Source: Streptomyces geranii (GTDB lineage Bacteria; Actinomycetota; Actinomycetes; Streptomycetales; Streptomycetaceae). From it: 64,000 bases of DNA. The notes under the pieces were generated by a model. The model did not search any database, was not told the DNA's origin, and was given only the letters and a program-made list of their open reading frames with translations. Location: contig NZ_PJME01000008.1 of NCBI RefSeq assembly GCF_002954775.1, positions 186,001 through 250,000 of the forward strand, written 5' to 3'. Made by a program: the position numbers and the translations under genes. Positions 18,604 through 41,231 of the stretch are shown here, piece after piece; the stretch's first letter is position 1; each line of letters opens with the position of its first letter.

Positions 18604-18686
18604 CGCGGCCTCCCCTCGGAACCGACCCGACCGACCCGACTGATGTCGCACGAAGGGCCCCGCCGTTCGGCGAGGCCCTTCTACAG

Positions 18687-18741
18687 CGGTAGCGGAGGGA
18701 TTTGAACCCTCGGTGACTTGCGCCACACTCGCTTTCGAGGT
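18687..18741. repeat. attL core of element 1 (tRNA-Ser 3' half)
   Basis: It is identical over 55 bp to 32361-32415 and diverges on both sides. It contains the T-arm, variable arm and anticodon loop of tRNA-Ser but no 5' half, so it is not a working tRNA gene. Confidence 0.95.
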
Positions 18742-18846
18742 CTGTTTGCGACGACCCTAGCATGATCCAGGGCTGTTCAGCCCAGTTCATTTCCATACTT
18801 TCACCTGGCGCGTGAACTGTTGTGAACGGCGCTGGACGGGGGTGAA

Positions 18847-18867
18847 TGAGACGGAAACTGAGACGGA
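18847..18867. promoter_or_regulatory. Arm-type repeat near attL
   Basis: Two copies of TGAGACGGA separated by AAC. The identical 21-bp block occurs at 32294-32314 near attR in the same orientation. These are probably integrase or excisionase arm sites. Confidence 0.65.
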
Positions 18868-18919
18868 GGCGACTGGCGCCGACCTGGGGCATCGTCAGTT
18901 CCGGCTGCGGTGGACCGGC

Positions 18920-19738
18920 TCATGCGGTGACGTTGGCGGGAGCCCGTCCGACGGCTAGAAGGTGTGAGCTTGCGGCGAGCAGCTCCGGGTACGGCTCAGC
19001 CATCCGCGCGGCCGTCATGGCGGACGCGATCAGATCGTCCGTGGGTCCGTCGCCTGGCTGTTGTTCGACTGCTTTCACGAGCGACCATGCCGGGCCCTCG
19101 ATTCCGAACACCTTCACGTCGGTGAGTCCCGATTCCCGAAGCTCGTCAGCCAGCTCTTCGCCGCGATGGAAGTACGCCAAGGTGAAGTGATCTCCGTCGT
19201 GCACCGCAGTTCGGAGGATCTTCGAGATTGCCTCCTGCATGCGCTCCGTGTGGAGGTGCGCGTAGGTGACGTGCTCGAAGAGCGAGGCATAGCGGTTGAT
19301 CGCCGCAGCGGCCACCAACCCGCCCGGCTTCACGACGCGTCGGGCCTCCGCAAGTGCTTGCCGGCGGTCGTCGGCATCGGGCAGGTGGTAGAGCGGGCCG
19401 AATAGCTGCACGACGTCGTAGCTGTCATCGGCCGCGTCCAGGTCCCGAGCGTCCCCCAGTGACGCTGGGCAAACAGCGGACGCCTGCTCAACGTGGCGAG
19501 GAACGGGGTCGACCAAGGACACCTCGTATCCGTCCTTCACCAGCCACTCCGCATGCACTCCGGTGCCGCCCCCCACGTCCAGCACGCGCGCGGGGGCCGG
19601 CGGGAGGAAGCGGCGTAGGAGTTCCTTGGTCCGCGCCAGTTCGAGACGGCCGTCTGCCGAGCGATGCAGGCGGCTGCCCTCGTTCACGGTCTCGCCGTAA
19701 AAGCGCAGGACAGAGGGGGCCAATTCGCGATTCGACAT
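18920..19738 (-). CDS. Class I SAM-dependent methyltransferase
   Basis: 272 residues from ATG 19738. Motif I is V-L-D-V-G-G-G-T-G (about residue 50), then S-L-V-D-P-V-P (motif II acidic end), D-V-V-Q-L-F-G-P-L-Y-H-L (motif IV region) and V-K-P-G-G-L-V-A-A-A (post III). Target unknown; it looks like a small-molecule type. It is divergent from the GntR gene across a 59-bp gap holding an operator, so it is probably regulated with it. It is cargo of element 1. Confidence 0.88.
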   Translation of the reverse strand: MSNRELAPSVLRFYGETVNEGSRLHRSADGRLELARTKELLRRFLPPAPARVLDVGGGTGVHAEWLVKDGYEVSLVDPVPRHVEQASAVCPASLGDARDLDAADDSYDVVQLFGPLYHLPDADDRRQALAEARRVVKPGGLVAAAAINRYASLFEHVTYAHLHTERMQEAISKILRTAVHDGDHFTLAYFHRGEELADELRESGLTDVKVFGIEGPAWSLVKAVEQQPGDGPTDDLIASAMTAARMAEPYPELLAASSHLLAVGRAPANVTA

Positions 19739-19756
19739 AGGAGCAGTATGGTGTGT

Positions 19757-19778
19757 ACCGGTGGACCAGTCCACCCTG
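19757..19778. promoter_or_regulatory. GntR operator copy between methyltransferase and GntR genes
   Basis: ACCGGTGGACCAGTCCA matches the palindrome at 20634-20659 read on the other strand with one change. It is placed to control both divergent genes. Confidence 0.65.
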
Positions 19779-19797
19779 AAGTGTCGGAAGGGAAGTC

Positions 19798-20514
19798 ATG
19801 GCCCTACTGAAGTACGAGGAGATCGCGGAATCGCTGCGTGCGCGCATCGCCGCTGGCGACTTCGGCCCGGATGAGCCACTGCCGTCCGGGCGGGACCTCG
19901 CAGAACAGTGGTCGGTGTCGCGTGCGACCGCCATCAAAGCTATGGATGTGCTGCGCAACGACGGCGTTGTCGTGGCCAAGCAGGGAACTGGGTTCGTCGT
20001 GACGAACACCCCCGTCGCGCGGCCTGCGGGCGCACGACGGGCGGGTTCCGCCCGGATCTCTGGCGGCATGCCCTTCGAGCGGGTCGGTGAGCCTGATTGG
20101 GCCGATCCCCCGGTGCGTGTGGCCGCCGCGCTGCGGCTGGATTCGGGGGTCGCCGCACTGCGACGCACCCGAATCCACCGCCTCCCGGACGGGAGTCCGC
20201 ACAGCTACGCGGAAGCGTGGTTCCCGCCGGAGGTTGCGGAAGCCTCCCCTCGGCTTGCGGATACCGCTCCCATCGCCGAAGGAACGACCCGTTACGTCCG
20301 TCGACAGACCGGCCGCTATCCGGTAGAGGGGGTGGACGTGACCACGGTGCGACTCGCGACTGAGCACGAGTCCCATCACCTGGCGCTGCCGGAGGCGACG
20401 GCGGTTGCCGTCATCCTGCACACCGCGTACGACCAACAAGGGCGCCCGCTCGTATGCGAAGAGGGGGTCACACCTTCCCCTCACTATGAGCAGGTGGAGA
20501 CCTATGCGATGTAG
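19798..20514 (+). CDS. GntR/HutC-family regulator of element 1 (KorSA-like)
   Basis: 238 residues. Residues about 5-75 form a GntR winged helix (P-S-G-R-D-L-A-E-Q-W-S-V-S-R-A-T-A-I-K-A-M). Residues about 95-238 form a UTRA domain (R-T-R-I-H-R-L-P-D-G, then H-T-A-Y-D-Q-Q-G-R-P-L). GGAAG precedes the ATG. Comparable regulators (KorSA in pSAM2, TraR in others) repress transfer and replication genes. Four copies of one palindrome lie before this gene, after it, before the transfer operon and before the replication operon, which fits a master repressor. Confidence 0.9.
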   Translation: MALLKYEEIAESLRARIAAGDFGPDEPLPSGRDLAEQWSVSRATAIKAMDVLRNDGVVVAKQGTGFVVTNTPVARPAGARRAGSARISGGMPFERVGEPDWADPPVRVAAALRLDSGVAALRRTRIHRLPDGSPHSYAEAWFPPEVAEASPRLADTAPIAEGTTRYVRRQTGRYPVEGVDVTTVRLATEHESHHLALPEATAVAVILHTAYDQQGRPLVCEEGVTPSPHYEQVETYAM

Positions 20515-20534
20515 GCCTGAGTTACCCATGGAAG

Positions 20535-20565
20535 AGCTGGACCGGTCCGCCGGTCCAGCTTTTTT
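20535..20565 (+). terminator. Terminator of the GntR gene built on the operator palindrome
   Basis: An 11-bp stem AGCTGGACCGG/CCGGTCCAGCT (20535-20545 with 20550-20560) runs straight into T6. The stem is also a near-perfect copy of the GntR operator. Confidence 0.85.
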
Positions 20566-20633
20566 CATGCTCTTTCAGCTCTCTGAACAGCAGGAACGCT
20601 AGAAATGTCGACAAAGCTGGTGTCACATCGCTT

Positions 20634-20659
20634 GACTGGACCGGTCCACCGGTCCAGTC
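20634..20659. promoter_or_regulatory. Perfect 26-bp operator upstream of the transfer operon
   Basis: Arms GACTGGACCGGT (20634-20645) and its complement (20648-20659) with a CC centre. TTGACT at 20632 overlaps the left arm and could be a -35 box, so binding here would block transcription of the leader and the transfer genes. Confidence 0.8.
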
Positions 20660-21256
20660 TATGGATGTGCCCGGAGGAAAGCCCCGCAGGGGGTGAGTAC
20701 GAAGGAAGCGCCGATTGGTTGAGAACTGAACAGTGATCGTGCGGGGCTGACGCGGGAGCGGCGGTCACGGCAGGTGCCCAGGGCGAGGGTCCGGGGGCAA
20801 ACCGTCGTGATGGACGCAGCTCTCCCCCTACGCGCCTGGCAGGCGCCACCCGGTGACGGGTGTGGGGAGGTAAAGCGGGCTCCAACGCACGTGGCGGGAT
20901 GAGAAGACCGCCCCCGAGACGACCGGGTGACGTCGTCGGCGGCACGCCACCTTGCACCGTTCGTGCAAGCCGCCTGCTGGCGTCAGAGCAGTGACGATGA
21001 CGCGCCCGATGCACCGGCTCGGGACCGGTCCGCCCCGCAAGGGCGGACCGGTGAAGCCGTCGAACCATTCCTGCTTACCGCCCCGGCATTCAGCCGTGAG
21101 GGCGCGGGATCGACTCCCGCCCGGGGCACTCCAGCCGCTGTTCTGCGGCTGCGCCGCGCGTCAGCGCGCGGCTGTTCACCCACAACGGCGTGCGGCTCCC
21201 GGGGTGCCACCCGGGAGCCGCTTCGGGCCGTCCCACTGACTAAGGAGACACGACCC
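20660..21256 (+). other. 597-nt leader rich in hairpins, tRNA-like fold
   Basis: No gene supported. Hairpins seen: a 12-bp stem ACCGGTCCGCCC/GGGCGGACCGGT at about 21023-21052; a tRNA-like minihelix at 21080-21128 (7-bp acceptor GCCCCGG/CCGGGGC, 5-bp T stem GCGGG/CCCGC with a 7-nt loop, then A); GC stems at 21131-21175; and a long stem GCGGCTCCCGGG/CCCGGGAGCCGC at about 21189-21220. AAGGAGA at 21242 serves the first transfer gene. It may be an origin, an attenuator or a stability element. Confidence 0.5.
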
Positions 21257-21520
21257 ATGAAGCACATCGGTGCTGTTCAGACGGACGTTACCGCCGACGA
21301 CTTCGACAACGAGCCGGCTCCCTGGGACCTGGTCGACATCGAGGACGAGATGCCGCTCATCGAGGCGGAGATTGAACTGTTGGACGTCCAGATCAGCCTG
21401 CTGGACCGGCCGGCCACCGAGACGGACACGCGCCGGCTGCGGCGGGCCCACCGCAAGGTGCTGGCCGCCCGCCGCGTGCTGGCCAACCGGGACGGCGACG
21501 CGTTCTCGGACGTGGCCTGA
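21257..21520 (+). CDS. DUF6284-like small protein
   Basis: 87 residues from ATG 21257 (AAGGAGA upstream). The core I-E-D-E-M-P-L-I-E-A-E-I-E-L-L-D-V-Q-I-S-L-L-D-R and an R-R-L-R-R-A-H-R-K-V-L-A-A-R-R end give an all-helical, coiled-coil-like protein. I recall this as a family found first in Streptomyces ICE transfer operons. The longer frame to 20927 crosses the tRNA-like leader and is rejected. Role unknown. Confidence 0.75.
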   Translation: MKHIGAVQTDVTADDFDNEPAPWDLVDIEDEMPLIEAEIELLDVQISLLDRPATETDTRRLRRAHRKVLAARRVLANRDGDAFSDVA

Positions 21521-21807
21521 TGGCGGGGGAGTTCACCGCTCAGATGTCCGTTCACCGGGGCCGGTGGCGCCTGTACGTGGTGCTGTTCAACACCACCGAG
21601 CGGTGGCCCGAGTTCGGCTTCGACCGGGCCGCTCCGGTGCCGACGTTCACGGAACGCACTCACGCGCTCAGCGTGCTCGGCTTCGAGCCGCTGCCGGATG
21701 CCGAGTGGACGTGGACCGAGGACAGCGAGACCCCCGACGACCCCGCTTCCCCGGTCTGCCTGATCGCCGCGATCCGGGTGCGTTCCTGGTCGGGGGTGAG
21801 CTTGTGA
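21520..21807 (+). CDS. DUF6303-like small protein
   Basis: 95 residues beginning M-A-G-E-F-T-A-Q-M with W-R-L-Y-V-V-L-F-N-T-T-E-R-W-P. It overlaps the previous stop by one base (TGATG) and the next start by GTGA, so it is tightly coupled. This is a recurring small gene of actinomycete ICE transfer operons; no function known. Confidence 0.75.
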   Translation: MAGEFTAQMSVHRGRWRLYVVLFNTTERWPEFGFDRAAPVPTFTERTHALSVLGFEPLPDAEWTWTEDSETPDDPASPVCLIAAIRVRSWSGVSL

Positions 21808-22823
21808 ACGCCGTTCAGATCCGTTCAGCAGAGCGCGCGCTGTCGGTCGGCACGTGGCTGATCGTGGCGGGCGCGATGCTGTATTCGATCCTCACCGTCA
21901 CCCCGCTCGCTGCCGAGCACACCCCCGACAGGTGGGACTGGACGGCGCCGATCCTGCCGCTCGTGGTGGACGCGGCGGTGGTGATCGTGGTCCGCCTCGA
22001 TGCCGTGCTCGCCTCACTGGGGGGTCACGGTGGGAAGTGGCCAATCGTCCTGCGCTGGATGACCGGCTGCATGACCCTCGCCCTGAATGTCGCAGACTCA
22101 GCGCTGCGGAAAGACCTGGTCGGCGCGGCCGTGCATGCGGTTGCCCCGCTCCTGCTGATCGTCACCGCAGAGACCGGACTCGCCTACCGCCGCGCCATCG
22201 CCACCGCCACCGCCGCTCTGGAAGAGCAGCAGCGCACGGAGCGGGCGGCGCGGGAACAGGCAGCGGCCGAACGGCGCGAGGCAGCGGTGCGGCTGGCCCG
22301 CGAGGAACGCGAGCACACCGCCCTGCTGGCGCGTGAACAGCGCGATCACGAAGCCCGCCTCGCCCGTGAACAGGCTGAGCGCGAGGAGCGGGCGCGGCGC
22401 GAGGAAGCCGAGCGCACCGAAGTTCGGGAGCGGTTCGAGCGCGAGCAGCGTGAACGCGCTGAGCGCGAGCGTGAACAGCAGCGGCGCGAGCGTGAACGCC
22501 GTGAGCGCGAGGAAGCCGAGCAGCGCGAGCAGGCGCGGCAGCAGCACGCGGAGCGTGAACGCCGTGAACAGGTGGAGCGTGCGGCGCGGGCGGAGCGTGA
22601 ACGCGCCGCGCTGCTGTCCGGCGGACCGGCTACAGCGAAGCTGTCGGAGGACCGGGCCCGCCCGATCGTCCGGGCCGCGTTCGAGACCGGTTTGCCGACG
22701 CGGGCCGCTGCTGAGCTGTGCGGCTGGTCGGTCGGCTGGGTGTCCAGCCGCTATCAGGAACTGCGCGACGCCGGCCACCCCGGCACCGCCCGCGAGGCGG
22801 TACCGGCTGAGGCGGTGGCGTGA
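21804..22823 (+). CDS. DUF2637 membrane/coiled-coil protein (Spd-like)
   Basis: 339 residues from GTG 21804. Residues 1-130 contain four hydrophobic segments (DUF2637). Residues about 135-265 are an extreme charged helix of R-E-R/E-R-E repeats, a long single alpha helix or coiled coil. The last 70 residues hold a helix-turn-helix-like segment (A-A-E-L-C-G-W-S-V-G-W-V-S-S-R-Y). DUF2637 proteins are common in Streptomyces plasmid spread (Spd) loci, where they help intramycelial DNA spread. Confidence 0.82.
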   Translation: MNAVQIRSAERALSVGTWLIVAGAMLYSILTVTPLAAEHTPDRWDWTAPILPLVVDAAVVIVVRLDAVLASLGGHGGKWPIVLRWMTGCMTLALNVADSALRKDLVGAAVHAVAPLLLIVTAETGLAYRRAIATATAALEEQQRTERAAREQAAAERREAAVRLAREEREHTALLAREQRDHEARLAREQAEREERARREEAERTEVRERFEREQRERAEREREQQRRERERREREEAEQREQARQQHAERERREQVERAARAERERAALLSGGPATAKLSEDRARPIVRAAFETGLPTRAAAELCGWSVGWVSSRYQELRDAGHPGTAREAVPAEAVA

Positions 22824-23203
22824 TGTCCCTCGGGTACGCCAAGTGCTTCGACCCGACCGGCGCCCGCTACGGCATCCCCACCTTCCCGTGGCGCTGCGTC
22901 CCGGACGGCTACGCCACCCGTCGCCAGTTACGGGCGCGCGGTCTGCGCCCCGGTGGTCAGCCGGTGGCCGCTCAGGCACTTCGCCCGCGCTACCGGCGCG
23001 GCCCGCTCATCGCCTACTTCTACCGCCTCGACCAGGCCAAGCCGGTCCGCCCGATGACGCCGGCGAAACGGCGGGCTCTGGAGTGCGCCAACCGCGCCCG
23101 GCGGACGTGCCCGCAGTGCCGTACGGACGCCGGATACGTCATCCCCGTCTCGCTCGGAACGTGTGTGACCTGCGCCTATCCCGAAGAACAGTGCGCCGCC
23201 TGA
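22823..23203 (+). CDS. RRQRL-type putative zinc-binding protein
   Basis: 126 residues from ATG 22823 (TGATG overlap). It has Y-A-T-R-R-Q-L-R-A-R-G-L-R-P-G near residue 33, the motif that names this family, and near the C terminus two pairs C-P-Q-C and C-V-T-C that probably bind zinc. It is a standard member of Streptomyces ICE operons; function unknown. Confidence 0.75.
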   Translation: MSLGYAKCFDPTGARYGIPTFPWRCVPDGYATRRQLRARGLRPGGQPVAAQALRPRYRRGPLIAYFYRLDQAKPVRPMTPAKRRALECANRARRTCPQCRTDAGYVIPVSLGTCVTCAYPEEQCAA

Positions 23204-23226
23204 CCCTTCCATCCGAGGAGCAATCC

Positions 23227-23472
23227 ATGGTGCCTCTCCAGACTCCGACCGCATGGCCGCCGGGCGTCACGGCCCGTTTCCTCACCCTGGCCGGTGAGCT
23301 GCTGGGGGACGCGGACGTCACGGTCGACGTGAGCGTCGACGACATCCAGGCCACCGCCCGCTGCACCGCCTGCGGCAGCACGCACGCCCGGTACGGCCAC
23401 GCGGACCCGGTCCGCGAGTGGGCGCAGGAGCACGCCGCCAAGTGCCGCGCCCTGCCCCGCCCCACCCCGTGA
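23227..23472 (+). CDS. Hypothetical ICE protein with C-x-x-C
   Basis: 81 residues from ATG 23227 (GAGGAGC upstream). V-D-V-S-V-D-D-I-Q-A-T-A-R-C-T-A-C-G, then H-A-R-Y-G-H and a later C suggest a small metal site. It lies between the RRQRL gene and a membrane gene it overlaps by GTGA. No function known. Confidence 0.65.
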   Translation: MVPLQTPTAWPPGVTARFLTLAGELLGDADVTVDVSVDDIQATARCTACGSTHARYGHADPVREWAQEHAAKCRALPRPTP

Positions 23473-24011
23473 ACCACCCCAACATCCCTCTGTCACCCGG
23501 GAGTTCTGCTGTGTCCAGCCGTACCCGTACCCGCCGCGTGAAGACAGCGGCCGGCGTCACCACTGTGCGTCTGCCGCGTCAGCGCGGGCGCCGCTCCGCT
23601 CAGCCGTTCGTGGTCGTCGTGCCCGAACGCCCCTCCCTCGCCCGCGAGTTCGCCGCGTGGGCGGGCAGTCTGCTGTGGCGCTTCCGCCATGCGCTCGCGC
23701 CGACCGGCATCGCGCTGGGGGCGTTCGCGGTGACCGCGCTGTTGCACGTGCTGGCCTGGTGGTCGGCTCTCGTGCTCGCCCCCGCCGTCGCCGCGCCGAT
23801 CGCGTGGCTGCTGTTCGTTCAGCGCCGTCACCCCGCCCACCGCTCCACGCTCGCGTGGCGTATCGGCACGGCCGCCCTGGCCACGCTCGCGCTCGGGTGG
23901 GCTGCTCTGGCCGCCGGGTTCGGGCCGCTCGCGGGTCCGCTGGAGTTGCTGTGGCTGTTGCTGCTGCTGCCGGCTCAGACCGGCTGGCTCATCGTCCGCC
24001 GCACCCACTGA
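23469..24011 (+). CDS. Membrane protein of the transfer operon
   Basis: 180 residues from GTG 23469. A basic N terminus of about 75 residues (R-T-R-T-R-R-V-K) is followed by three to four hydrophobic helices with P-R-S-style loops, ending in I-V-R-R-T-H. It is probably one of the Spd-type membrane proteins; assignment by context only. Confidence 0.65.
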   Translation: MNHPNIPLSPGSSAVSSRTRTRRVKTAAGVTTVRLPRQRGRRSAQPFVVVVPERPSLAREFAAWAGSLLWRFRHALAPTGIALGAFAVTALLHVLAWWSALVLAPAVAAPIAWLLFVQRRHPAHRSTLAWRIGTAALATLALGWAALAAGFGPLAGPLELLWLLLLLPAQTGWLIVRRTH

Positions 24012-24029
24012 CCTGAGGAGACACGTCTG

Positions 24030-24626
24030 ATGGCAGACAACGGATCGGCCAACCGGGCCGCCAACCGGCAGCACCGGCAGGCACAGAGCGCCAACCGGCC
24101 GCGCGTCAACACCAGTGACGGCACCACCAACAAGTCCAACAAGTTCGCCAACGTCGGCGCGGCGGCGGGCGGGTTCGTCGGCGCGATGGGCGGCTCGTTC
24201 GTCCCGCCGATCAACGTCACGGTCAACAACAACAAGGGCATGGCCCGTGCGGGCGGTGGCCGGGGGAACGCCCAATCGCTGCTGCCCGCGCCGGAGTTCA
24301 CTTCTCCCGCGCAGGTGCGGAACTACTGCAACACCCTGCGTGCGGCGGCCGTGGCCCTGTCGATCGAGGTGGCCATGGGCTCGGAGATCCTCAAGAGCGT
24401 GCTGTCCGCCGTGCCGGACCCGGAGGGGCGCGCGTTCGGCTCCCGCATCCGGGCCCGGAAGGTCGCCCGGAAGATGCAGAAGTCCGCCGACGCCCTGCGC
24501 GACGCGGCGAAGAACGCCGCTTCCTGCTACTCCGCTTTCCAGCAGGAGTACCAGGAAGAGATCAACCGGGTCCGTCACCGCGCCCGTAAGCCGCAGCAGC
24601 CCGTCATCAACTGGGCTCAGCAGTAA
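24030..24626 (+). CDS. TraA/Spd-like conjugal transfer accessory protein
   Basis: 198 residues. An N-terminal 70 residues rich in N, A, G and R contain a short hydrophobic Gly-rich segment (V-G-A-A-A-G-G-F-V-G-A-M-G). The helical part Y-C-N-T-L-R-A-A-A-V-A-L-S-I-E-V-A, then S-R-I-R-A-R-K-V-A-R-K-M, matches small proteins annotated as plasmid transfer proteins next to traB. AGGAGA precedes the ATG; 13 bp to traB. Confidence 0.7.
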   Translation: MADNGSANRAANRQHRQAQSANRPRVNTSDGTTNKSNKFANVGAAAGGFVGAMGGSFVPPINVTVNNNKGMARAGGGRGNAQSLLPAPEFTSPAQVRNYCNTLRAAAVALSIEVAMGSEILKSVLSAVPDPEGRAFGSRIRARKVARKMQKSADALRDAAKNAASCYSAFQQEYQEEINRVRHRARKPQQPVINWAQQ

Positions 24627-24639
24627 GGAGGCACCGGCC

Positions 24640-26691
24640 ATGGCCCGTGACCACAACCGCATGACCTACTCCGACGACAGCAGCATGCACGGCTACACCC
24701 TCGACTCACGCGGCGGTGGGGGCGGTGTCGGCGCCTACCTCCTCAACCGGGCCAAGCCGCACCTTCCCCCGTGGCTCGGGGTCGCCGGTGTCGGCATCAC
24801 GGGCGCGCTGGGGAACTGGCGGTGGGGCGAGAGCGCCGCCGCCGGCGTTGGCCTCACTCTCGCTTCCGTCGTACTGACCGGCGCCACCTGGGCTATCGGC
24901 AAGTCGACCAGCCAGCAGCGCCGCCTGCACTCCGCGATCACGGTGGCGGCGGGGTCCGCGTGGCTGACGGCCGCGTGCCTGGCCGGGCCGACCGCCGGGC
25001 CGATCGATGATCTGTACCTGATCGGTGGGCCGGTGCTGGCGCTTACGTGGAACGTGCGCATGGTCCTGCGCCGCAACGACGACCCCGCCGGCGAAGGCTC
25101 CGACAAGGGGCTGTTGGCGAAGGTCGGGCTGGCCCGCGCGCAGATCGGCGCGGCGAAGGTGGAACCCAACCGGGTCACCGCGTCGGTGGCGTTGGAGCCG
25201 GGGGAGCAGACGAACGAGGACGTCACCAAGAGCCTGTCTAGGCTCGCGTCCGCCCTGGATCTGCCGACGTCGGCCGTGCGCTACCTGCCCGACCCCGGCT
25301 CCGCACGGCGCGGCGAACTCGTCATCGTCCCCGAAGACATGCTCGCCGAAGTCGTCGAGTGGGAGGGGCCGTCGAACCTGGGGGGTTCGATCGCGGAACC
25401 GCTGGTCATCGGACGCTACGACGACGGCGCCCCCATCTACCTGTGGCTTCCGGGTGACCCGGAGGCCAAGCGGAACGGCACGCATATCCTGATCGCGGGC
25501 GGGACGGGGTCCGGCAAGGGCGACACCGCCCTGAACGTCCAGACCGAGATCTTGTCCCGGCGGGATGTGGTGCTGTGGTTGTCGGACCCGAAGTCCTTCC
25601 AGGACTTTAGGCCCCTGCTGCCCGGCATCGACTGGGCCGTTGAGGGCGGGGCGCCGACGGAGATCATGGTGGAAGCCCTCAAGGCCGCCATTCCCGCCCG
25701 CACGAGCTGGCTCGGTGCCCACCACTACCGGCAGTGGACCCCTGAATGCGTCCAGCAGCAGAACGACCCCAAGCACTCCTGCCGGTCGAACGGCACGGCG
25801 TGCGGCTGCACGGGCATGCCCTACCTGGTCGCCTGGATGGAGGAAGCCGCCAACACCCTGCGCGCCCTCGGGGACGACGTCTTCACCGGCATTGCGCAGG
25901 AAGCTCGGTCCGCCGGTATCTCGCTGATCGTGTCGCTTCAGCGGCCGTCGTACGACCAGATGTCCACCAGCACGCGGGCCTCGCTGCCGTCCGTGATCGC
26001 GCTCGGCTGCGACCCGCGCGACGAGGGGTTCAGCCTGCCGGAGACGGTCATCGACGCCGGCGCGCACCCCGGGGCGTGGGGCAACCGACGACCCGGTTAC
26101 TGCTACGTCGTCTCCCCCGGTATCGACGAGTCCCGCTACCCCTCCCCGGGCCGCACCCGCGCCTTCGGCCACCGGGCGGTGCCCGTCATGGAGCTGCTCG
26201 CCACCTGGGCACAGCGCAACGGCGCCACCCCCGACCCGATCACCGACCGCGCTGCGGCCGGTGTCGCCGGACGCGCCTACACCACCCGCAACGACACCGA
26301 CGACCAGTCGACGGCGGGCGCCGCTGCCGAGGAGGGGGACGACGACATGGAGTACGGGCTGCTGGTCGACCCGGAAGACGTCGACATCGACCCGGACGCC
26401 GAACTCCCCGACCCCGAAGACGGCGACGACACCCCGCTGTTCGGACAGGACACCGGACACAAGCCGTCCCCCGCAGAGGCACGGCGGCTGTTCGCGGACG
26501 CGCTCACCCAGTTCGAGAACGAGGGCCGCATGGTCGTCGGGCCGAAGGACTTCATGGACTGGTGCGACCGGCACGGCCTCTCCCGCCCGTGGGTGTCCGC
26601 ACGGTTGAAGGACGCGTACGAGGAGGGCCGGTTGGAGCCCACAAACCAGACCGGCCGGTGGCGGATCGTCCCCGCCCTGACACCCGCCTGA
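24640..26691 (+). CDS. TraB-type FtsK/SpoIIIE DNA translocase
   Basis: 683 residues from ATG 24640 (AAGGAGG). Four hydrophobic segments (about 45-145) anchor it. Walker A is A-G-G-T-G-S-G-K-G-D (K at about 293); Walker B is Y-L-V-A-W-M-E-E-A-A, and S-L-Q-R-P-S-Y is the FtsK motor motif. The C-terminal 70 residues (F-M-D-W-C-D-R-H-G-L-S-R-P-W-V) look like a winged helix, as in TraB/FtsK-gamma, which reads octamer repeats at clt. The octamer array at 26677-26797 begins inside the 3' end of this gene. An acidic linker (about 565-605) precedes the DNA-binding end. Confidence 0.93.
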   Translation: MARDHNRMTYSDDSSMHGYTLDSRGGGGGVGAYLLNRAKPHLPPWLGVAGVGITGALGNWRWGESAAAGVGLTLASVVLTGATWAIGKSTSQQRRLHSAITVAAGSAWLTAACLAGPTAGPIDDLYLIGGPVLALTWNVRMVLRRNDDPAGEGSDKGLLAKVGLARAQIGAAKVEPNRVTASVALEPGEQTNEDVTKSLSRLASALDLPTSAVRYLPDPGSARRGELVIVPEDMLAEVVEWEGPSNLGGSIAEPLVIGRYDDGAPIYLWLPGDPEAKRNGTHILIAGGTGSGKGDTALNVQTEILSRRDVVLWLSDPKSFQDFRPLLPGIDWAVEGGAPTEIMVEALKAAIPARTSWLGAHHYRQWTPECVQQQNDPKHSCRSNGTACGCTGMPYLVAWMEEAANTLRALGDDVFTGIAQEARSAGISLIVSLQRPSYDQMSTSTRASLPSVIALGCDPRDEGFSLPETVIDAGAHPGAWGNRRPGYCYVVSPGIDESRYPSPGRTRAFGHRAVPVMELLATWAQRNGATPDPITDRAAAGVAGRAYTTRNDTDDQSTAGAAAEEGDDDMEYGLLVDPEDVDIDPDAELPDPEDGDDTPLFGQDTGHKPSPAEARRLFADALTQFENEGRMVVGPKDFMDWCDRHGLSRPWVSARLKDAYEEGRLEPTNQTGRWRIVPALTPA

Positions 26692-26797
26692 CGCCTGACA
26701 CCGTCACAGCGCCCTGACACCCAAACCCCTAGGCAGACGCGGTGTCACGCACTCCTGACACCACCCGCTGACACCCCTGACACCCGCGTCTGACACC
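26677..26797 (+). repeat. Octamer array CTGACACC, candidate clt/TRS
   Basis: Exact copies start at 26677, 26695, 26714, 26755, 26768, 26777 and 26790, all on the plus strand. There is one variant (CTGACGCC, 26688) and one inverted partial copy (26741-26747). It sits at and after the traB stop, where Streptomyces plasmids keep the sequences their own TraB recognises. Confidence 0.8.
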
Positions 26798-26847
26798 CGC
26801 ACGTTCTCGGGCCTGTGCTACCTCGGCGCGGGTCTGCCTCTTGATCA

Positions 26848-26873
26848 GACTGGACCGGTCTACCGGTCCAGCC
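26848..26873. promoter_or_regulatory. GntR operator upstream of the replication operon
   Basis: GACTGGACCGGT (26848-26859), CT, then ACCGGTCCAGCC: one change from the perfect 20634 palindrome. TTGATC at 26841 could be the -35 box beside it. Confidence 0.75.
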
Positions 26874-26891
26874 TCGCCGAAGGGAGTGTCC

Positions 26892-27203
26892 GTGACCCAC
26901 CGCGACCCGCCGGGGATCATCGCCCCGCACATCCCCGCCGACGACTGGCGCCGCGCAGAAGCCACCGGCGCCCCGCTCGTGATCGTCGTTCAGACCACCG
27001 ACCACAGCGGCATCCCGTGGCGACGCGTCCTGATTCCGTTCGCCGTCGCCGGCGCCGCCGCCCTCGGTTGCTGGGGGCTGATTGCTGCCCTCTGCGCGCT
27101 GCTCGATGCCGCCGCCCACGCGTGGACCGTCATCGCCGGTGCCACCGGGCCGATCGGTATCGGCGGCATCACCCTCAAACTCGCCCGCGCCAAGACCCAC
27201 TAG
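26892..27203 (+). CDS. Small membrane protein of element 1
   Basis: 103 residues from GTG 26892 (AAGGGAG upstream; another GTG two codons earlier). A soluble N terminus of about 45 residues, then two hydrophobic helices with a Gly/Pro turn, ending A-R-A-K-T-H. It is first in the operon behind the operator. Function unknown. Confidence 0.68.
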   Translation: MTHRDPPGIIAPHIPADDWRRAEATGAPLVIVVQTTDHSGIPWRRVLIPFAVAGAAALGCWGLIAALCALLDAAAHAWTVIAGATGPIGIGGITLKLARAKTH

Positions 27204-27291
27204 CTACGCCCGGGGCGACCGCACCTCTCGCCAAAGACACGCGGTCGCCCCGGCCAACCAGTCCGCTACAGACCTGTTGGAGGTCTCCAGC

Positions 27292-28209
27292 ATGACCCAT
27301 GACCCCCATGCCGCATTGCTGCGCGCGGCATTGGCCGCCGCCGGACGCGGCTGGCACGTCTTCCCGCTGCGCCCGAACAGCAAGCACCCCGCCCTGCACG
27401 GCGCCGACCGCTGCCAGCAGACCGGCGACTGCGTGAACGGACACCGGAAGTGGGAGCAGCGGGCCAGCACCGACCCCGAGCGCATCCGCATCTGCTGGGA
27501 GACCGGCGCGGCGAACGTCGCCATCGCGACCGGCCCCTCGAACCTGGTCGTCGTCGACCTGGACATGCCCAAGCCCAACGGCAAGAACGGGAAGGGCAGT
27601 GCGGACGCGCCTGACGGCGCGACGACCTTTGCGGCGCTCTGCGAGCGCGCCGGACAGCCCGTGCCCACCACCTACCGAGTGCGGACCGCGAGCGGCGGAT
27701 CCCACCTGTACTTCACTGCCCCGCCCGGCGTCCGGCTGGCCAACACCGCCGGCAGTCTCGCCCCGTTGGTCGACACCCGCGCGTGGGGCGGCTACGTCGT
27801 CGCCGCCGGCAGCACCACCCCCACCGGACCGTACGAAGTCGTCGACGACGCGGCCGTGGCCGCGCTGCCCGCATGGCTGCTGCGCCTGCTCCAACCCGCT
27901 CCCGCCCGGCCGGCCGGACCGCTCAGGCTCCCGGCAGTCAGCGGCAGCAGCGCCGCCCTGGCCGCGCTGGAAGCCGAGTGCGCGATCGTGTCCGCCGCCC
28001 CGGAATCGCAGCGCAACATCACGCTCAACCGGTCCGCCTTCAAGGTGGGGCGATTCGTCGCGTGGGGCGACATCCCCCGCCACGTGGTGGAAGACGCCTT
28101 CCAAGCGGCAGGAGAGGCGCACGGACTCACCGCTGCGGAGTGCCGCGCCACGATCCGCAGCGCCCTGGACAGCTCCCTGCGCAAAGCCCGCCCCCGGGAC
28201 GCGGCATGA
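27292..28209 (+). CDS. Bifunctional DNA primase/polymerase (prim-pol)
   Basis: 305 residues from ATG 27292 (TTGGAGG). The PF09250-type fold shows G-W-H-V-F-P-L-R-P-N-S-K-H-P-A near residue 20, N-V-A-I-A-T-G then V-V-D-L-D (catalytic acidic pair), R-V-R-T-A-S-G-G-S-H-L-Y-F and D-T-R-A-W-G-G-Y-V-V-A-A-G-S. With the DUF3631 ATPase downstream it makes the replication module that replaces RepSA in many actinomycete ICEs. Confidence 0.92.
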   Translation: MTHDPHAALLRAALAAAGRGWHVFPLRPNSKHPALHGADRCQQTGDCVNGHRKWEQRASTDPERIRICWETGAANVAIATGPSNLVVVDLDMPKPNGKNGKGSADAPDGATTFAALCERAGQPVPTTYRVRTASGGSHLYFTAPPGVRLANTAGSLAPLVDTRAWGGYVVAAGSTTPTGPYEVVDDAAVAALPAWLLRLLQPAPARPAGPLRLPAVSGSSAALAALEAECAIVSAAPESQRNITLNRSAFKVGRFVAWGDIPRHVVEDAFQAAGEAHGLTAAECRATIRSALDSSLRKARPRDAA

Positions 28210-28559
28210 ACCCCCCACCCAGCAACCCCTTGGAAGGCCAACCCGCCGCCACAGCGCGCCCGCGCGCCGCCACACCGGCCGTACTTCCGCCAGGCGATGG
28301 CGCCCGAAGGGACGTCGCCGAAGGCGTCCTTTCAGCTCTTCGCCCCAACCCGCCACGCGGCGACGGCCGGTACCCGATCGCGTGGTTGCACATCACCATG
28401 CCGCGCCGGGGGACCCCGACGGCCAGGTCGACGTGCGAGTGCGGCCGTGACCGCAGCGCCGTCGGCCACGACGACGTGTGCGCCCTGGCCGCCGACCACA
28501 ACGCTCACCGCGACACCTGCCCCCTCCGCACCCCTCAGGAAGGGAGGAACGCCGCATGA
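28206..28559 (+). CDS. Hypothetical protein between prim-pol and DUF3631
   Basis: 117 residues, coupled on both sides by ATGA overlaps. The N-terminal half is low complexity (A, P, R). The C-terminal half has C-E-C-G-R-D, then V-C, then H-R-D-T-C, which could form a zinc site. It recurs in this operon position in Streptomyces ICEs; role unknown. Confidence 0.65.
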   Translation: MNPPPSNPLEGQPAATARPRAATPAVLPPGDGARRDVAEGVLSALRPNPPRGDGRYPIAWLHITMPRRGTPTARSTCECGRDRSAVGHDDVCALAADHNAHRDTCPLRTPQEGRNAA

Positions 28560-29722
28560 CCACCACCGACACTCCGCCGCCGCCCATCGACGGCGCGGCC
28601 CTGCTCAACGAGGTCGAAGCGTTCCACCGCCGCTTCAACGTCTTCCCCCGCGAAGCCGCCTACGTCGCCGTCACCCTCTGGGACGCCCACGCCCACCTCC
28701 TCGACGCCTTCGACTCCACTCCCCGTCTGGCGTTCCTCTCCCCGGAGCCGGGCTCGGGGAAGTCACGGGCCCTGGAAGTCGTCGAAACCCTCGTACCGCG
28801 CTCCATGGCCGCCGTGGACGCCTCCGCCGCCGCCCTCTTCCGGTCGGTGTCCGGTGTGGACGGCGGACGCCCGACGATCCTGTTCGACGAAATCGACACG
28901 ATCTTCGGACCGAAGGCAGGAGAGAACGAACAGCTCCGGGGGTTCATCAACGCAGGTCACACCCGGGGCCGCGTGATGTACCGGTGCGTCGGAGATGGCT
29001 CCAACCAACAGGTACAGGGCTTCCCCTCGTACTGCGCGGTCGCCGTCGCCGGACTCGGGGCACTGCCCGACACGATCATGACCCGCTCGGTCATCATCCG
29101 CATGCGCCGCCGAGCCCGCAACGAGACCGTGGAACAGTTCCGCACCCGCATCCACGTACGGGAAGGCAACCACCTCCGTGACCGCCTCGCGAAGTGGGCG
29201 GAAGCCATTCAGGAGCGGGTCACGGACGCCTTCCCGGAGATGCCCGAAGGCGTGGCCGACCGGCCGGCGGACGTGTGGGAACCCCTGATCGCCATCGCCG
29301 ATGCGGCCGGCGGGGACTGGCCCAAGCGGGCCCGCGAAGCCTGCGTCGCGCTGGTCAAGGCATCGCAGGTCAACGACAAGGGCAGCATCGGCATCCGCCT
29401 CCTCACCGACCTGCGCGACCACGTGATGATCGGCATCGACCGCCTGCCCACCGTCGCCATCCTCGACCGGCTCAACGCCCTCGACGACGCCCCGTGGGCG
29501 GACCTCAACGGCAAGCCCCTCGACAACCGCCGCCTCTCCCGGATGCTCGGGGAGTACGTCACCGCAGATGGCGACCCCGTGGCCTCCCGGAACATCAAGA
29601 CCGCCGGGAGCGTGCTTAAGGGCTACTACGCCACCGATCTGCATGACGCGTGGCAGCGCTACTGCCCCCCGCCCCCGGAAAGTCCGCTACTCCCGCTACC
29701 GGACGGCGAAAACACGCTCTGA
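28556..29722 (+). CDS. DUF3631 replication ATPase/helicase-like protein
   Basis: 388 residues. Walker A is S-P-E-P-G-S-G-K-S-R (about residue 65), Walker B is T-I-L-F-D-E-I-D, and a DUF3631 region follows (R-A-R-E-A-C-V-A-L, then D-L-R-D-H-V-M). It probably loads or acts as helicase with the prim-pol. AGGGAGGA precedes the ATG. CGCTAC iterons begin in its last codons. Confidence 0.88.
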   Translation: MTTTDTPPPPIDGAALLNEVEAFHRRFNVFPREAAYVAVTLWDAHAHLLDAFDSTPRLAFLSPEPGSGKSRALEVVETLVPRSMAAVDASAAALFRSVSGVDGGRPTILFDEIDTIFGPKAGENEQLRGFINAGHTRGRVMYRCVGDGSNQQVQGFPSYCAVAVAGLGALPDTIMTRSVIIRMRRRARNETVEQFRTRIHVREGNHLRDRLAKWAEAIQERVTDAFPEMPEGVADRPADVWEPLIAIADAAGGDWPKRAREACVALVKASQVNDKGSIGIRLLTDLRDHVMIGIDRLPTVAILDRLNALDDAPWADLNGKPLDNRRLSRMLGEYVTADGDPVASRNIKTAGSVLKGYYATDLHDAWQRYCPPPPESPLLPLPDGENTL

Positions 29723-29856
29723 CCAGCACAAACACGGTAGCGGGTCGCACCCCCGCGACCCGCTACCTCTCGCTACTCCATCCGCTACCGCTACCCCTCT
29801 CCGCTACCCCCGACGGGGCTCTGACCTGCACGGAAGCGGAGGTAGCGCAGGTAGCG
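29657..29856. repeat. CGCTAC iteron cluster, candidate replication origin
   Basis: CGCTAC on the plus strand at 29657, 29685, 29694, 29761, 29771, 29783, 29789 and 29802, and inverted (GGTAGCG) at 29736, 29841 and 29850. The GTAGCGGGTCGC/GCGACCCGCTAC pair at 29738-29766 is a perfect hairpin. There is no gene in 29723-29918. Confidence 0.7.
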
Positions 29857-29918
29857 GACTTTCCAGAACGGGGCGCAGCCCCATGCCCCGGCCAAGAAGC
29901 CGAAGGAGCATCACGCGA

Positions 29919-30152
29919 ATGGACACGGCCCACGCCGCCGACGCATTCGACCCCACCCTCGTGCTGCTGACCGTCGAAGAGGCTGCCCGCCGCCTCCGAG
30001 TCGGCCGAACCGTCTGTTACCGGCTCATCCGCTCCGGAGAACTGGAGTCCATCACCGTCGGCCACCTCCGCAGGGTCCCCGCCGACGCCGTACCCGAGTT
30101 CGTCACCCGCCGCCGCAAGAGGCAGCGCTCCGCCATCGCCGCCGCAGCCTGA
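29919..30152 (+). CDS. Excisionase (MerR-like HTH)
   Basis: 77 residues: L-L-T-V-E-E-A-A-R-R-L-R-V-G-R-T-V-C-Y-R-L-I-R-S-G-E-L-E-S-I-T-V-G-H-L-R-R-V, the winged helix of HTH_17 excisionases, then a basic tail. GAAGGAG upstream. It is 9 bp before int, the usual Xis-Int pair. Confidence 0.92.
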   Translation: MDTAHAADAFDPTLVLLTVEEAARRLRVGRTVCYRLIRSGELESITVGHLRRVPADAVPEFVTRRRKRQRSAIAAAA

Positions 30153-30161
30153 GGAGTACGC

Positions 30162-31442
30162 ATGGCAGAAGACAAGAGCAAGCGCACTCGACAGCCCAAC
30201 GGCCGCTCATCCATCTACCTGGGCAAGGACGGCAAGTGGCACGGCCGTGTCACCGTCGGCATTCGCGACGACGGTACGCCTGATCGCCGCCACGTTGAAC
30301 GCAAGACCCGCGCCGAAGTGACGGCCGCTGTCCGCGATTTGGAGCGGGAACGTGACGCCAAGACCATCCGCAAGGCTGGTCGCCCCTGGACGGTCAAGAC
30401 ATGGCTGACTCACTGGGTGGAGAACATCGCCCCGCTCGCCGTCAACGAGAACACGATGGTTGGCTACGGGGTCGCAGTGCGGAAGCACCTGATTCCCGCG
30501 CTCGGTGCCCACCGGCTCGACAAGCTCAAGCCGGAACACATCGAGCACTTCTACGGGAAGATGCAGGCCAACGGACGTAGAGCCGGAACGATTCACCAGA
30601 TCCACCGCACCTTCCGGACCGCGCTGAACGAGGCGGTACGGCGCGGTCACCTCGCCCGGAACCCCGTCCAACTCGCCAAGGCGCCTCGCCTCAGCGAAGA
30701 GGAAGTGGAGCCCTACACCGTCGAAGAGGTTCAGCGGCTGTTGCGCACGGCGGACGACCGCCGGAACTCCGCACGGTGGGCCGTGGCGCTCGCCCTCGGA
30801 CTCCGACAGGGCGAAGCGCTCGGACTCAAGTGGGCGGATGTGGACCTCGCTCGGGGTGTCCTGATGGTCCGTCGGAGTCGACGTCGACCGCGCTACGCCC
30901 ACGGATGCGGCGACACCTGCGGCAGGAAGGCCGGGTACTGCCCTCAGCGTCAGCGGACCAATCCGGAGACAGCAGACACGAAGTCTCGCGCGGGACGGCG
31001 ATCGGTCGGACTGCCCGCACAGCTTGTTGACTTGCTCCGGACCCACCAGACCAAGCAGGCCGTGGAACGAGCGGGAGCCGGGGACGACTGGACGGAAGAG
31101 GGCTGGCTCTTCGCGACGTCGACCGGTCGGGGCACGTCGCCCCGCACGGACTATGACGACTGGAAGGAGTTGCTCAGCGACGCGAAGGTGCGAGACGGCC
31201 GGCTGCACGACGCTCGGCACACAGCCGCCACTGTCCTGCTGATCCTCGGAGTCTCCGAGCGGGCTGTCATGGGGCTCATGGGATGGTCGACCACGGCCAT
31301 GGCCGCACGGTACCAACACATGGTGGACTCCGTGCGCACCGACGTTGCCCGTCAGGTCGACGGGCTTATCTGGAAGCCGGACGTAGACGCGCCGGACGAC
31401 GATGACGACGGTCTCTCCGGGACCCTCGTACCAGCCCACTGA
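30162..31442 (+). CDS. Tyrosine recombinase integrase of element 1
   Basis: 426 residues. An AP2-like arm-binding N terminus (W-H-G-R-V-T-V-G), a SAM-like core-binding domain (about 75-165), then the catalytic domain: R in A-L-G-L-R-Q-G-E-A-L-G-L, H-D-A-R-H-T-A-A, and Y in A-A-R-Y-Q-H-M. It inserts the element into the tRNA-Ser(CGA) 3' end, judged from position. A zinc-like insertion (C-G-D-T-C-x-x-x-x-x-Y-C) lies in the catalytic domain, as in other pSAM2-type integrases. Confidence 0.95.
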   Translation: MAEDKSKRTRQPNGRSSIYLGKDGKWHGRVTVGIRDDGTPDRRHVERKTRAEVTAAVRDLERERDAKTIRKAGRPWTVKTWLTHWVENIAPLAVNENTMVGYGVAVRKHLIPALGAHRLDKLKPEHIEHFYGKMQANGRRAGTIHQIHRTFRTALNEAVRRGHLARNPVQLAKAPRLSEEEVEPYTVEEVQRLLRTADDRRNSARWAVALALGLRQGEALGLKWADVDLARGVLMVRRSRRRPRYAHGCGDTCGRKAGYCPQRQRTNPETADTKSRAGRRSVGLPAQLVDLLRTHQTKQAVERAGAGDDWTEEGWLFATSTGRGTSPRTDYDDWKELLSDAKVRDGRLHDARHTAATVLLILGVSERAVMGLMGWSTTAMAARYQHMVDSVRTDVARQVDGLIWKPDVDAPDDDDDGLSGTLVPAH

Positions 31443-31447
31443 AACAT

Positions 31448-31474
31448 CGGGGGCAGGCTTTCTGCCTGCCCCCG
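31448..31474. terminator. Hairpin between int and the DUF4145 gene
   Basis: A perfect 11-bp stem CGGGGGCAGGC/GCCTGCCCCCG with loop TTTCT. It lies between two convergent genes and has no T run. Confidence 0.7.
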
Positions 31475-31488
31475 CCCGGATCTCCGGG

Positions 31489-32199
31489 CTACGGCGTTGG
31501 CGACTTGGCCGCCGTGCGCCGCGCGGCCCGCTGCGCTGCCATTTTGGCCCGCTGAGCGGGTTGAACGTACAGCACGAGCACCGCTTCGTTGATGAGCTCG
31601 GCGATGTCTGCGATCTCTTCGGTGGAGTAGGCGAGGGCATCGTGAGCCGCGTCGTTCCCAACGAATCGGGCCTCGTGGAAGGCCTCCACGATTTCCTCGG
31701 TAGCGCCAAGGTTCTTCAGCCCGGTGATGCGCTCGTACAAGTTGTTGCCGACGGCGCCTCGTTCCTTGACGATCTGTTCCACAGTCGCCCGGTATCCGAT
31801 GCCAGCGAGACGGAACGCACCTGCGGCTTCTGCTAGTGCTGCTTCCGCGAAGACTTCCCGGACGGTCTCTGGTGCCTCCGGAGCTAGCTCGCGGGGCGTC
31901 CTGACAGGCCAGACCTGTTCGGTGTCGAAAGTGGTGTAGAAATCGCGGGTGCCTCCTGACACCGGCGTCTTCTTAATGGTGACAAGGCGGAGGTAGACGC
32001 TTTCCTTCGAGCACCAGTTGCACAGCAGAGTCATCAGACACCTGGCCCCTTTGCCGTCCGTAGGCTCAAGGTCGCTACCGCGCAGCTTTGAGTGTGAGAT
32101 GACGGTGAGCGTCGTATGGCAGAGGCAGTGCGGGCACTCTCCGCCGACAGTGCTGTGTAGGGGATCGTAGCCGTCTAGCTTGGCGAAGCGGTTCGTCAC
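31489..32199 (-). CDS. DUF4145 (HEPN-like) protein, element 1 cargo
   Basis: 236 residues from GTG 32199 (a frame extension to GTG 32235 is possible; neither has a clear ribosome site). Two Cys pairs (C-P-H-C and C-N-W-C) near the N terminus look like a zinc ribbon. The C-terminal half is the DUF4145 helical domain with R-F-V-G-N-D-A-A-H-D, the R...H signature of this HEPN-related family. Such proteins occur in defence and toxin settings. It is next to attR, a typical cargo position. Confidence 0.75.
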   Translation of the reverse strand: MTNRFAKLDGYDPLHSTVGGECPHCLCHTTLTVISHSKLRGSDLEPTDGKGARCLMTLLCNWCSKESVYLRLVTIKKTPVSGGTRDFYTTFDTEQVWPVRTPRELAPEAPETVREVFAEAALAEAAGAFRLAGIGYRATVEQIVKERGAVGNNLYERITGLKNLGATEEIVEAFHEARFVGNDAAHDALAYSTEEIADIAELINEAVLVLYVQPAQRAKMAAQRAARRTAAKSPTP

Positions 32200-32293
32200 G
32201 GAAGGACCGTATCTGCAGGCCGACCCAAGCGTCACCGGTTTTTGCTAGGCGTCTCGTCTCGAAGGACTCCGACAAGGGTCCCGGCTGGTCAAC

Positions 32294-32314
32294 TGAGACG
32301 GAAACTGAGACGGA
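32294..32314. promoter_or_regulatory. Arm-type repeat near attR
   Basis: Identical 21-bp block to 18847-18867, made of two TGAGACGGA copies in the same orientation, 46 bp from the attR core. Confidence 0.65.
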
Positions 32315-32360
32315 AGCCGAAGAGGCGCCCGACTTGATGAGCCGGGCGCCTCTTCTACCT

Positions 32361-32415
32361 GCGGTAGCGGAGGGATTTGAACCCTCGGTGACTTGCGCCA
32401 CACTCGCTTTCGAGG
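32361..32415. repeat. attR core of element 1
   Basis: 55 bp identical to 18687-18741, coinciding with the 3' part of the intact tRNA-Ser gene. Integration therefore rebuilt the tRNA with element-supplied 3' sequence. Confidence 0.95.
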
Positions 32416-32446
32416 CGAGCTCCTTCGGCCGCTCGGACACGCTACC
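32362..32446 (-). tRNA. tRNA-Ser(CGA)
   Basis: 85 nt. Acceptor GGTAGCG/CGCTACC, anticodon stem CTCGC/GCGAG with loop CTCGAAA (anticodon CGA), long variable arm TGGCGCAAGTCACC, T arm GAGGG-TTCAAAT-CCCTC, discriminator G. The CCA end is not fully encoded (GCA follows). It is the integration target of element 1. Confidence 0.96.
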
Positions 32447-40498: not shown

Positions 40499-40634
40499 GG
40501 GTAAGAGCGGGTGCGTTCTTGAGTTGTGAGGCGACCCAAGCCTCAGAAGAAGCGTCGGCCTTCGTGGCTGGCGCTTTCTTCTTTTTCTTGGGGCTCTGTT
40601 GCTTGCCCGGATTCTCTCTGCCGCTAGATCTCAT
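40443..40634 (-). CDS. Small basic mobile-element protein
   Basis: 63 residues from ATG 40634: a Lys-rich stretch (P-K-K-K-K-K-A-P), then W-V-A-S-Q-L-K-N-A-P-A-L-T-P-K-Q-R-K-R-I-E-K-I-L. The A-P-x-L-T-P-x-Q-R-x-R pattern is typical of short proteins in actinobacterial phages and ICEs. It overlaps the integrase 3' end by 56 bp, convergent. Confidence 0.62.
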   Translation of the reverse strand: MRSSGRENPGKQQSPKKKKKAPATKADASSEAWVASQLKNAPALTPKQRKRIEKILADRPPEA

Positions 40635-40709
40635 CAAAAACTCAGTTACTTATTGCTTAATTATAACAGCCAAGACCACCAAACAGAATATCGAAGGGAG
40701 TTGGTCGGC

Positions 40710-41036
40710 ATGGCATACGTGACACGACGCGTCAGCGATCTGTCCGGCGTCGAAGGCGCTGAATCAGATTTCGCCACGCTCACCGTCCGCCGTTACCCGG
40801 GACTTGAGAAGCCCGCCCAGTTCGACGTCACGCCGGACGAAATCAAGGGCCTCAAGGACAACGACACAATCGTCATTGTCGAAGTGAAGCGTCCCGGGTC
40901 AAACGACACGGAAATGGTTCACATGTTGCGCGACGACTTCGACGCGCTTGCACCTAAGGACAACATGGCAGAACTGCTGGGCCAGGCTCGCGGCACTCGC
41001 GGGCGTCGCCCCGGTTCACGAGTAAACGGCGGATGA
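40710..41036 (+). CDS. Hypothetical mobile-element protein
   Basis: 108 residues from ATG 40710 (AAGGGAG upstream). A beta-rich acidic protein: S-D-F-A-T-L-T-V-R-R-Y-P-G-L-E-K-P, then D-T-I-V-I-V-E-V-K-R-P, with a basic C terminus. No family recognised. Its promoter is probably in the AT-rich stretch 40635-40709. Its stop opens the outer stem of the structured region that follows. Confidence 0.65.
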   Translation: MAYVTRRVSDLSGVEGAESDFATLTVRRYPGLEKPAQFDVTPDEIKGLKDNDTIVIVEVKRPGSNDTEMVHMLRDDFDALAPKDNMAELLGQARGTRGRRPGSRVNGG

Positions 41037-41160: not shown

Positions 41161-41231
41161 TACCGGCGTTTACCAGGGTGGTTGCCGCCCAGAGGACGGG
41201 CACAACTACCTTCAGAAAGGAGGTCTCCTGA

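Follow-up and report, generated by a model that had tools for sequence, protein, structure and literature searches.

A candidate clt after traB in an integrated Streptomyces element, and a two-residue correlation between TraB and its repeat word

We analysed an array of short direct repeats that follows traB in an integrated element of Streptomyces geranii and conclude from sequence comparison that it is very probably a clt, the site at which TraB would dock for transfer of the element. Comparison with relatives further suggests that residues 650 and 654, in the predicted recognition helix of TraB, determine which base follows the first T of the repeat. The clt itself is unsurprising and its repeat word was already known; what is new here is the two-residue correlation, together with a cassette pattern of helix domain and repeats. 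In the literature searched, mainly titles and starts of abstracts with subscription journals mostly uncovered, neither a residue-to-repeat code for TraB nor such a cassette pattern was described. Streptomyces conjugation moves double-stranded DNA by a single FtsK-like protein, with clt deciding the cargo, and a clt that could be read from the TraB sequence would allow cognate transfer sites, and cross-mobilisation of co-resident elements, to be predicted.

The repeat array and its host element

The window, that is, the whole stretch of 64,000 nucleotides analysed here, comes from a genome of 10.2 Mb in 100 contigs. Within it, the array sits in an integrated element of ~13.7 kb (18686-32415), bounded by a 55-bp direct repeat and tRNA-Ser (Table 1). 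An integrase, a replication protein and TraB were found between direct repeats at a tRNA, and this gene content makes the element an AICE, for which excision and transfer are predicted. The traB product was recognised by its family model, the Pfam profile FtsK_SpoIIIE giving 19.1 bits, below its cut-off of 24; a Pfam search with the small ORF that follows the array gave no match. Just inside both att copies lies a direct repeat of 28 bp (18841-18867 and 32287-32314; 93% identity; containing CTGAGACGGA-like units), possibly the arm sites of the integrase. Elsewhere in the window, all ten 2-kb steps of 40001-60000 have a G+C content of 0.51-0.63, against mostly 0.65-0.74 outside this stretch, which is possibly a further foreign island, and a short repeat array is found at ~60188-60320, where 8-mers of TCGAACCCCTCGAACC recur 4 times within 130 bp.

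Table 1. Features of the element and of the array after traB (window positions).
Feature	Positions	Strand	Remarks
Left att copy	18686-18740		55 bp identical to the 3' part of tRNA-Ser
GntR/UTRA regulator (GntR-type)	19798-20514		
traA, plasmid transfer protein TraA	24030-24626	+	NF041213
traB, FtsK-like DNA translocase	24640-26691	+	NF041214 plasmid_TraB, 1006 bits (cut-off 800)
C-terminal domain of TraB (last 80 residues), predicted winged helix	26449-26688	+	AlphaFold2 pLDDT 90.4, H-H-H-E-E
Codons of predicted recognition helix alpha3 (residues 650-661)	26587-26622	+	Pro650 = 26587-26589, Ala654 = 26599-26601
Candidate clt repeat array	26677-26797	+	CTGACACC at 26677, 26695, 26714, 26755, 26768, 26777 and 26790; motif count, layout common to pWTY27 clt and other relatives
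Variant copy CTGACGCC, one mismatch	26688-26695	+	contains the traB stop codon TGA (26689-26691)
Conserved spacer (core) CAAACCCCTAGGC	26722-26734	+	separates left and right repeat blocks
Inverted copy GGTGTCAC	26741-26748	-	7/8 to the octamer, 7/7 to TGACACC (exact GGTGTCA)
Small ORF directly 3' of the array	26892-27203	+	putatively spread-protein-like, from position and by-eye hydrophobicity
Primase/polymerase (Prim-Pol), replication	27292-28209	+	PF09250; searched from 27295
DUF3631 protein, probably replication-associated	28478-29722	+	
HTH_17 excisionase-like protein	29568-30152	+	searched from 29742
Tyrosine integrase	30162-31442	+	PF00589
tRNA-Ser(CGA)	32361-32446	-	right att = 32361-32415

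The first-pass annotation had described seven exact copies of the octamer, one variant and one inverted partial copy, in an array beginning in the final codons of traB, and all of these were found again. The repeats extend to 106 bp beyond the stop codon. Over the whole window CTGACACC occurs 10 times, compared to 100 shuffles that averaged 2.56 occurrences and never exceeded 7. No other 8-mer of the window is as tightly clustered, with 7 copies of CTGACACC in 130 bp against 5 for the runner-up. When the local 240 bp were shuffled 2000 times with dinucleotides preserved, no 8-mer reached more than 3 copies within 130 bp, and 40 shuffles of the whole window likewise gave at most 3. Directly past the array, an inverted repeat, CTGGACCGGTCTACCGGTCCAG, occupies 26850-26871; a terminator-like T run was looked for there and none was found. 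Several relatives have other GC-rich stem-loops at this place.

Correspondence with the clt of pWTY27

A search of plasmids with TraB gave 61 records, eight of them at 71-78% identity with pWTY27 (NC_013667.2) among these, and the TraB relatives are nearly all from Streptomyces. Excerpts of the pWTY27 study (PMC3583192) describe a clt comprising 16 bp within tra and 159 bp downstream that are needed for transfer, with four TGACACC repeats named DC1; deletions in it reduce transfer up to about 1000-fold, and a purified truncated Tra protein footprints all four DC1 plus a second region. Aligned via the stop codon, these footprints fall on 26670-26722 and 26740-26770 of the window.

Both sites begin inside tra, near its 3' end, and combine direct TGACACC repeats with an inverted copy and a CAAACCCCTAGGC core; the repeats in the window also lie within the ~160 bp over which a site of this type reaches downstream, and they have a cognate TraB with the same helix, as the pWTY27 protein (named TraA, of the TraB family) is 72% identical to the TraB of the window and has the same 12-residue recognition helix. 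The two differ in that the four exact direct copies of pWTY27 all belong to its left block, the right block being degenerate, whereas the window has seven, three in the left and four in the right block; furthermore, pWTY27 is a free theta plasmid, whereas the element of the window is integrated at tRNA-Ser. With the same place, layout, repeat word and helix, the array thus appears to be a clt of the pWTY27 type, whose repeat word was already known. The first-pass annotation had likewise proposed a candidate clt read by the C-terminal winged helix of TraB, and this proposal stands, both on the pWTY27-like place, repeat and layout and on the covariation of helix and repeat among relatives. Its further suggestion that the octamer may be a new specificity is rejected, since TGACACC is DC1 of pWTY27 (in the excerpts of PMC3583192) and the helix stretch SRPWVSARLKDA is identical in the pWTY27 protein.

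The TraBs of the eight nearest plasmids all have the helix SRPWVSARL. Seven of the plasmids share a layout in which a left block of TGACACC copies, placed where traB ends, is followed by a CAAACCCCTAGGC-like core and an inverted copy, with an exact GGTGTCA in 7/8. Of the 7 that share the layout, 5 have one or more exact copies in the right block and two, pWTY27 and pSM17B, have none there. The eighth, L008 (NZ_CP109563.1; loci are given L numbers), has a single copy and no array. Of the 83 relatives used for the tree below, 80 have a looser inverted copy no farther than 30 bp from the core and 77 have a similar core; the copy at the stop codon is present in many relatives too. Four loci (L008, L182, L196 and L051) have no array directly after traB despite the helix, and the clt of L008, L182 and L196 may have been lost or be located elsewhere. 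Among the distant rows L087, L088 and L092-L095, an array was looked for and none was resolved.

Covariation of helix and repeat among relatives

AlphaFold2, given the last 80 residues of TraB and an alignment of 43 of the 57 usable relatives, predicted with confidence a winged helix of the H-H-H-beta-beta fold, with domain residues 47-58 (TraB 650-661) as the recognition helix. Structure searches with this domain matched generic winged helices, and no FtsK gamma chain was among the matches listed. Nor did the domain match FtsK gamma (PF09397) in Pfam, and hhalign against the FtsK gamma domain of the host gave a probability of 0.4%, that is, no detectable profile similarity; a homology may have escaped these comparisons.

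In a first set, for which 392 genomes (64 of them matching at E<=1e-30) and 19 of the 61 plasmid records were used, SRPWVS[A/E/K] accompanied TGACACC, SRSWVSL accompanied TAACACC and SRSWVSK accompanied TCACACC. We put this as a rule that predicts which base follows the first T: Ser650 with Leu or Met654 gives A, Ser650 with Lys or Arg654 gives C, and all else gives G. The rule was written down before the helices and repeats of a second set, from a named-species collection, were examined. A third, more distant set (21 loci and 20 stretches, 41 in all, less 13 duplicates) was scored with a slightly wider pattern. Duplicates were dropped by exact match only, so that both held-out sets still include near-copies; on these, the rule was right in 37 of the 38 second-set loci that are not exact duplicates (of 58; 23 G, 7 A and 7 C, where a constant guess of G would score 23) and in 23 of 28 in the third set. 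The single second-set miss is L151, whose traB stops ahead of the helix. Those of the third set are L182 and L196 (no array), L187 (broken traB) and L189 and L190 (TGTCACC arrays); L191, scored as right, is actually of the TGTCACC type as well, and L185 has one match only, besides GCACA repeats. All eight non-duplicate loci of the third set with at least 60% identity obey the rule, which is therefore good among close relatives and frays farther out. Outside the rule, TGTCACC-type repeats accompany the helix SRQWVSGQV of the distant L189, L190 and L191 and may represent a fourth specificity class. In both L151 and L187, traB is interrupted before the helix domain.

For a phylogenetic control we kept 83 rows of the 147 loci in the first two sets; the other 64 were below 60% identity, lacked a recognisable helix, or were duplicates or short fragments. 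Ser650 with Leu654 goes with A in 17/17 rows, Ser650 with Lys654 with C in 11/11 and the remainder with G in 54/55, where L028 and L069 are C by TXACACC counts and A once rescored with TXACRC; the lone exception to G is L008. A tree of the TraB body, for which the C-terminal domain was removed from the 83 rows, needs 20 changes of repeat class (19 if L008 is left out) compared to a mean of 25.8 after shuffling; repeat class is thus only loosely tied to descent. Mutual information with repeat class (entropy 1.34 bits) ranks residue 654 first and residue 650 second of 658 columns, at 1.13 and 0.92 bits; the third-best column has 0.45 and the median column 0.04 bits. Contrasts at Ser650 on well-supported branches agree in 17 of 17 independent pairs (median of 200 pairings; in a few pairings 16 agreed and one was tied; p between 1.5e-5 and 3.1e-5 by sign test). 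Those between Lys and Leu654 among Ser650 rows agree in 4 of 4 pairs, which at p 0.125 is below significance for so small a number.

At the homologous repeat that adjoins the core, A stands in 16 of the 17 rows with Ser650 and Leu654, and C in the remaining row, L110 (TCACACC). The 28 A- and C-class arrays comprise 16 with one TGACACC, which is the copy at the stop codon, 3 with one elsewhere and 9 with none, a pattern that would follow if the gene constrained the copy at its stop codon.

A sister element in the same genome bears on how such changes arise. A second TraB, 92% identical to that of the window (L057, G000:C10:160000-179000; traB match G000:C10:169853-171901), belongs to an AICE-like locus with a different integrase-like ORF and a tRNA-Thr downstream, and has the helix SRSWVSKRL and TCACACC repeats. 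Compared in 90-bp steps, the two loci are 82% identical in the opening step of traB and 84-96% over the bulk of the gene. Identity is 78-80% over 26440-26709, which holds the helix domain, drops to 66% in the clt and to 37% in the gap, and is back at 92% where the next gene starts. Relatives of the same class as the window remain similar through helix domain and clt (L011 87-92%, L097 86-92%; gap 50% and 44%). The dip in identity against L057 looks like a swapped cassette. Cassette exchange also fits a tree of the C-terminal DNA from which the helix codons were removed: it needs 13 class changes compared to 19 on the TraB-body tree, though few of its branches are supported. Helix domain and clt look like a unit that changes together, at least sometimes as a single recombining cassette.

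These same observations lend themselves to another account, which is compatible with the clt reading and which we consider unlikely: helix and repeats would covary through joint inheritance of neighbouring DNA, not because residues 650 and 654 read the repeat. The helix codons lie ~100 bp from the repeats and could be swapped with them as one cassette, and the lower number of changes on the C-terminal tree favours this account as well. However, equally linked C-terminal columns are far less informative (best other 0.45 bits), and deep lineages lean the same way, with Ser650 and Lys or Arg654 helices accompanying GCACA repeats in the kin of pJV1 and pSN22 (~48-52% identity). In L089 (Ser650 and Met654, 36% identity), TAACACC is the most frequent word, yet it makes up only 3 of 7 copies (TCACACC 2, TGACACC 2). 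Dependence of repeat recognition on alpha3 of TraB has also been reported for pSVH1 (cited in the excerpts of PMC3583192). We lean towards a specificity code at residues 650 and 654, with elements repeatedly re-specified (19-20 changes on the TraB-body tree) by mutation or by swap of a ~350-bp cassette, so that sister elements on one chromosome would become mutually orthogonal, a state in which the two AICEs of the present genome appear to be. The natural pair in one genome, with TGACACC in one element and TCACACC in the other, makes a two-residue switch of specificity directly testable.

Selection for unlike classes in co-resident elements found no support: counted by hand, the classes differ in 4 of 6 genomes (this genome, S. 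samsunensis, S. beigongshangae and S. sp. S.PB5) and are the same in two (G109 and G693), where class frequencies alone would make about half differ. The count covers genomes with two non-identical, full-length close TraBs, leaving out G227 and G268 (identical), S. bambusae (fragments) and broken genes.

Other readings of the array, a proposed mechanism and chromosomal copies

Replication iterons bound by Rep proteins of the element are a very improbable reading, even with direct repeats near rep genes and the Prim-Pol (27292-28209) and DUF3631 genes just downstream: the iteron of pWTY27 is separate, with GTGGGAAC/TTCCCAC repeats beside repAB, and TGACACC is its clt (excerpts of PMC3583192). 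Moreover, the nearest plasmids keep the array after traB though the next annotated gene differs (a DNA methylase, NUDIX or hypothetical, in PLSDB gene tables that are incomplete), and repeat class tracks alpha3 of TraB. Least credible of all is an operator at which a regulator of the element, such as the GntR-type one (19798-20514), would control the gene after traB; most of the array does lie in the 200-bp gap upstream of that gene and the element does encode a GntR/UTRA regulator, but an operator with seven copies over 121 bp that begins inside the preceding gene would be unusual, and no sigma-70-like promoter was detected in 26600-26950 (Streptomyces promoters often deviate). Both readings are rejected on the clt data for pWTY27 (excerpts of PMC3583192) and on the tracking of repeat class with TraB residues.

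The array also differs from the sites of better-known relatives. In pSVH1, an FtsK-like TraB reads repeated 8-bp motifs by alpha3 of its C-terminal winged helix (cited in the excerpts of PMC3583192), which resembles what we propose here, but the repeat word differs: the TRS of pSVH1 is GACCCGGA (quoted in an excerpt of PMC5133688), a motif that has no copy in 26677-26797, so that the array is not a TRS of the pSVH1 type. The window contains 10 copies of GACCCGGA, all single, against 5.56 expected, and 6 of 100 shuffles reach 10. The clt of pJV1 has nine CCGCACA[C/G][C/G] repeats (quoted in the excerpts of PMC3583192). In pJV1 and pSN22 the CCGCACA repeats likewise lie directly 3' of traB, but they have a GCACA core, helices of the Ser650-Lys/Arg654 type and a TraB about 48% identical to that of the window. 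E. coli FtsK, which acts on KOPS, is likewise a translocase whose octamer is read by a C-terminal winged helix, but the domain of the window shows no detectable profile similarity to the FtsK gamma of its host. Judged from the register of the helix, aligned by eye, TraB residues 650 and 654 presumably match N1296 and R1300 of E. coli FtsK. The KOPS residues given for E. coli FtsK gamma are N1296, R1300 and E1303 (excerpt of PMC2533119).

From the anatomy of the array, its homology to a mapped clt and the covariation, we infer how binding, loading and transfer may proceed in this element. It would first excise and replicate, as its integrase, excisionase-like and Prim-Pol genes suggest. TraB hexamers would load on the circular double-stranded element, with alpha3 of the C-terminal winged helix reading TGACACC and residues 650 and 654 most likely fixing the base after the first T, and the loaded TraB would then pump the DNA of the element into the recipient.

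Across the 10.2 Mb of the genome, CTGACACC occurs 273 times, a number that speaks neither for nor against a KOPS-like chromosomal role because two controls disagree on it: it is below the about 400 predicted by the window-shuffle rate (2.56 per 64 kb) and above the 161 of the reversed string. Beyond the clt, five isolated pairs lie within 30 bp (reversed control 1), together with one cluster of three copies, in which TGACACC recurs with a spacing of 13 bp between NUDIX and acyltransferase-like genes (C18:72800-72832; L045:1501-1533). No TraB ORF was found within the 3 kb examined near this cluster, which could be a clt-like chromosomal site or a product of chance.
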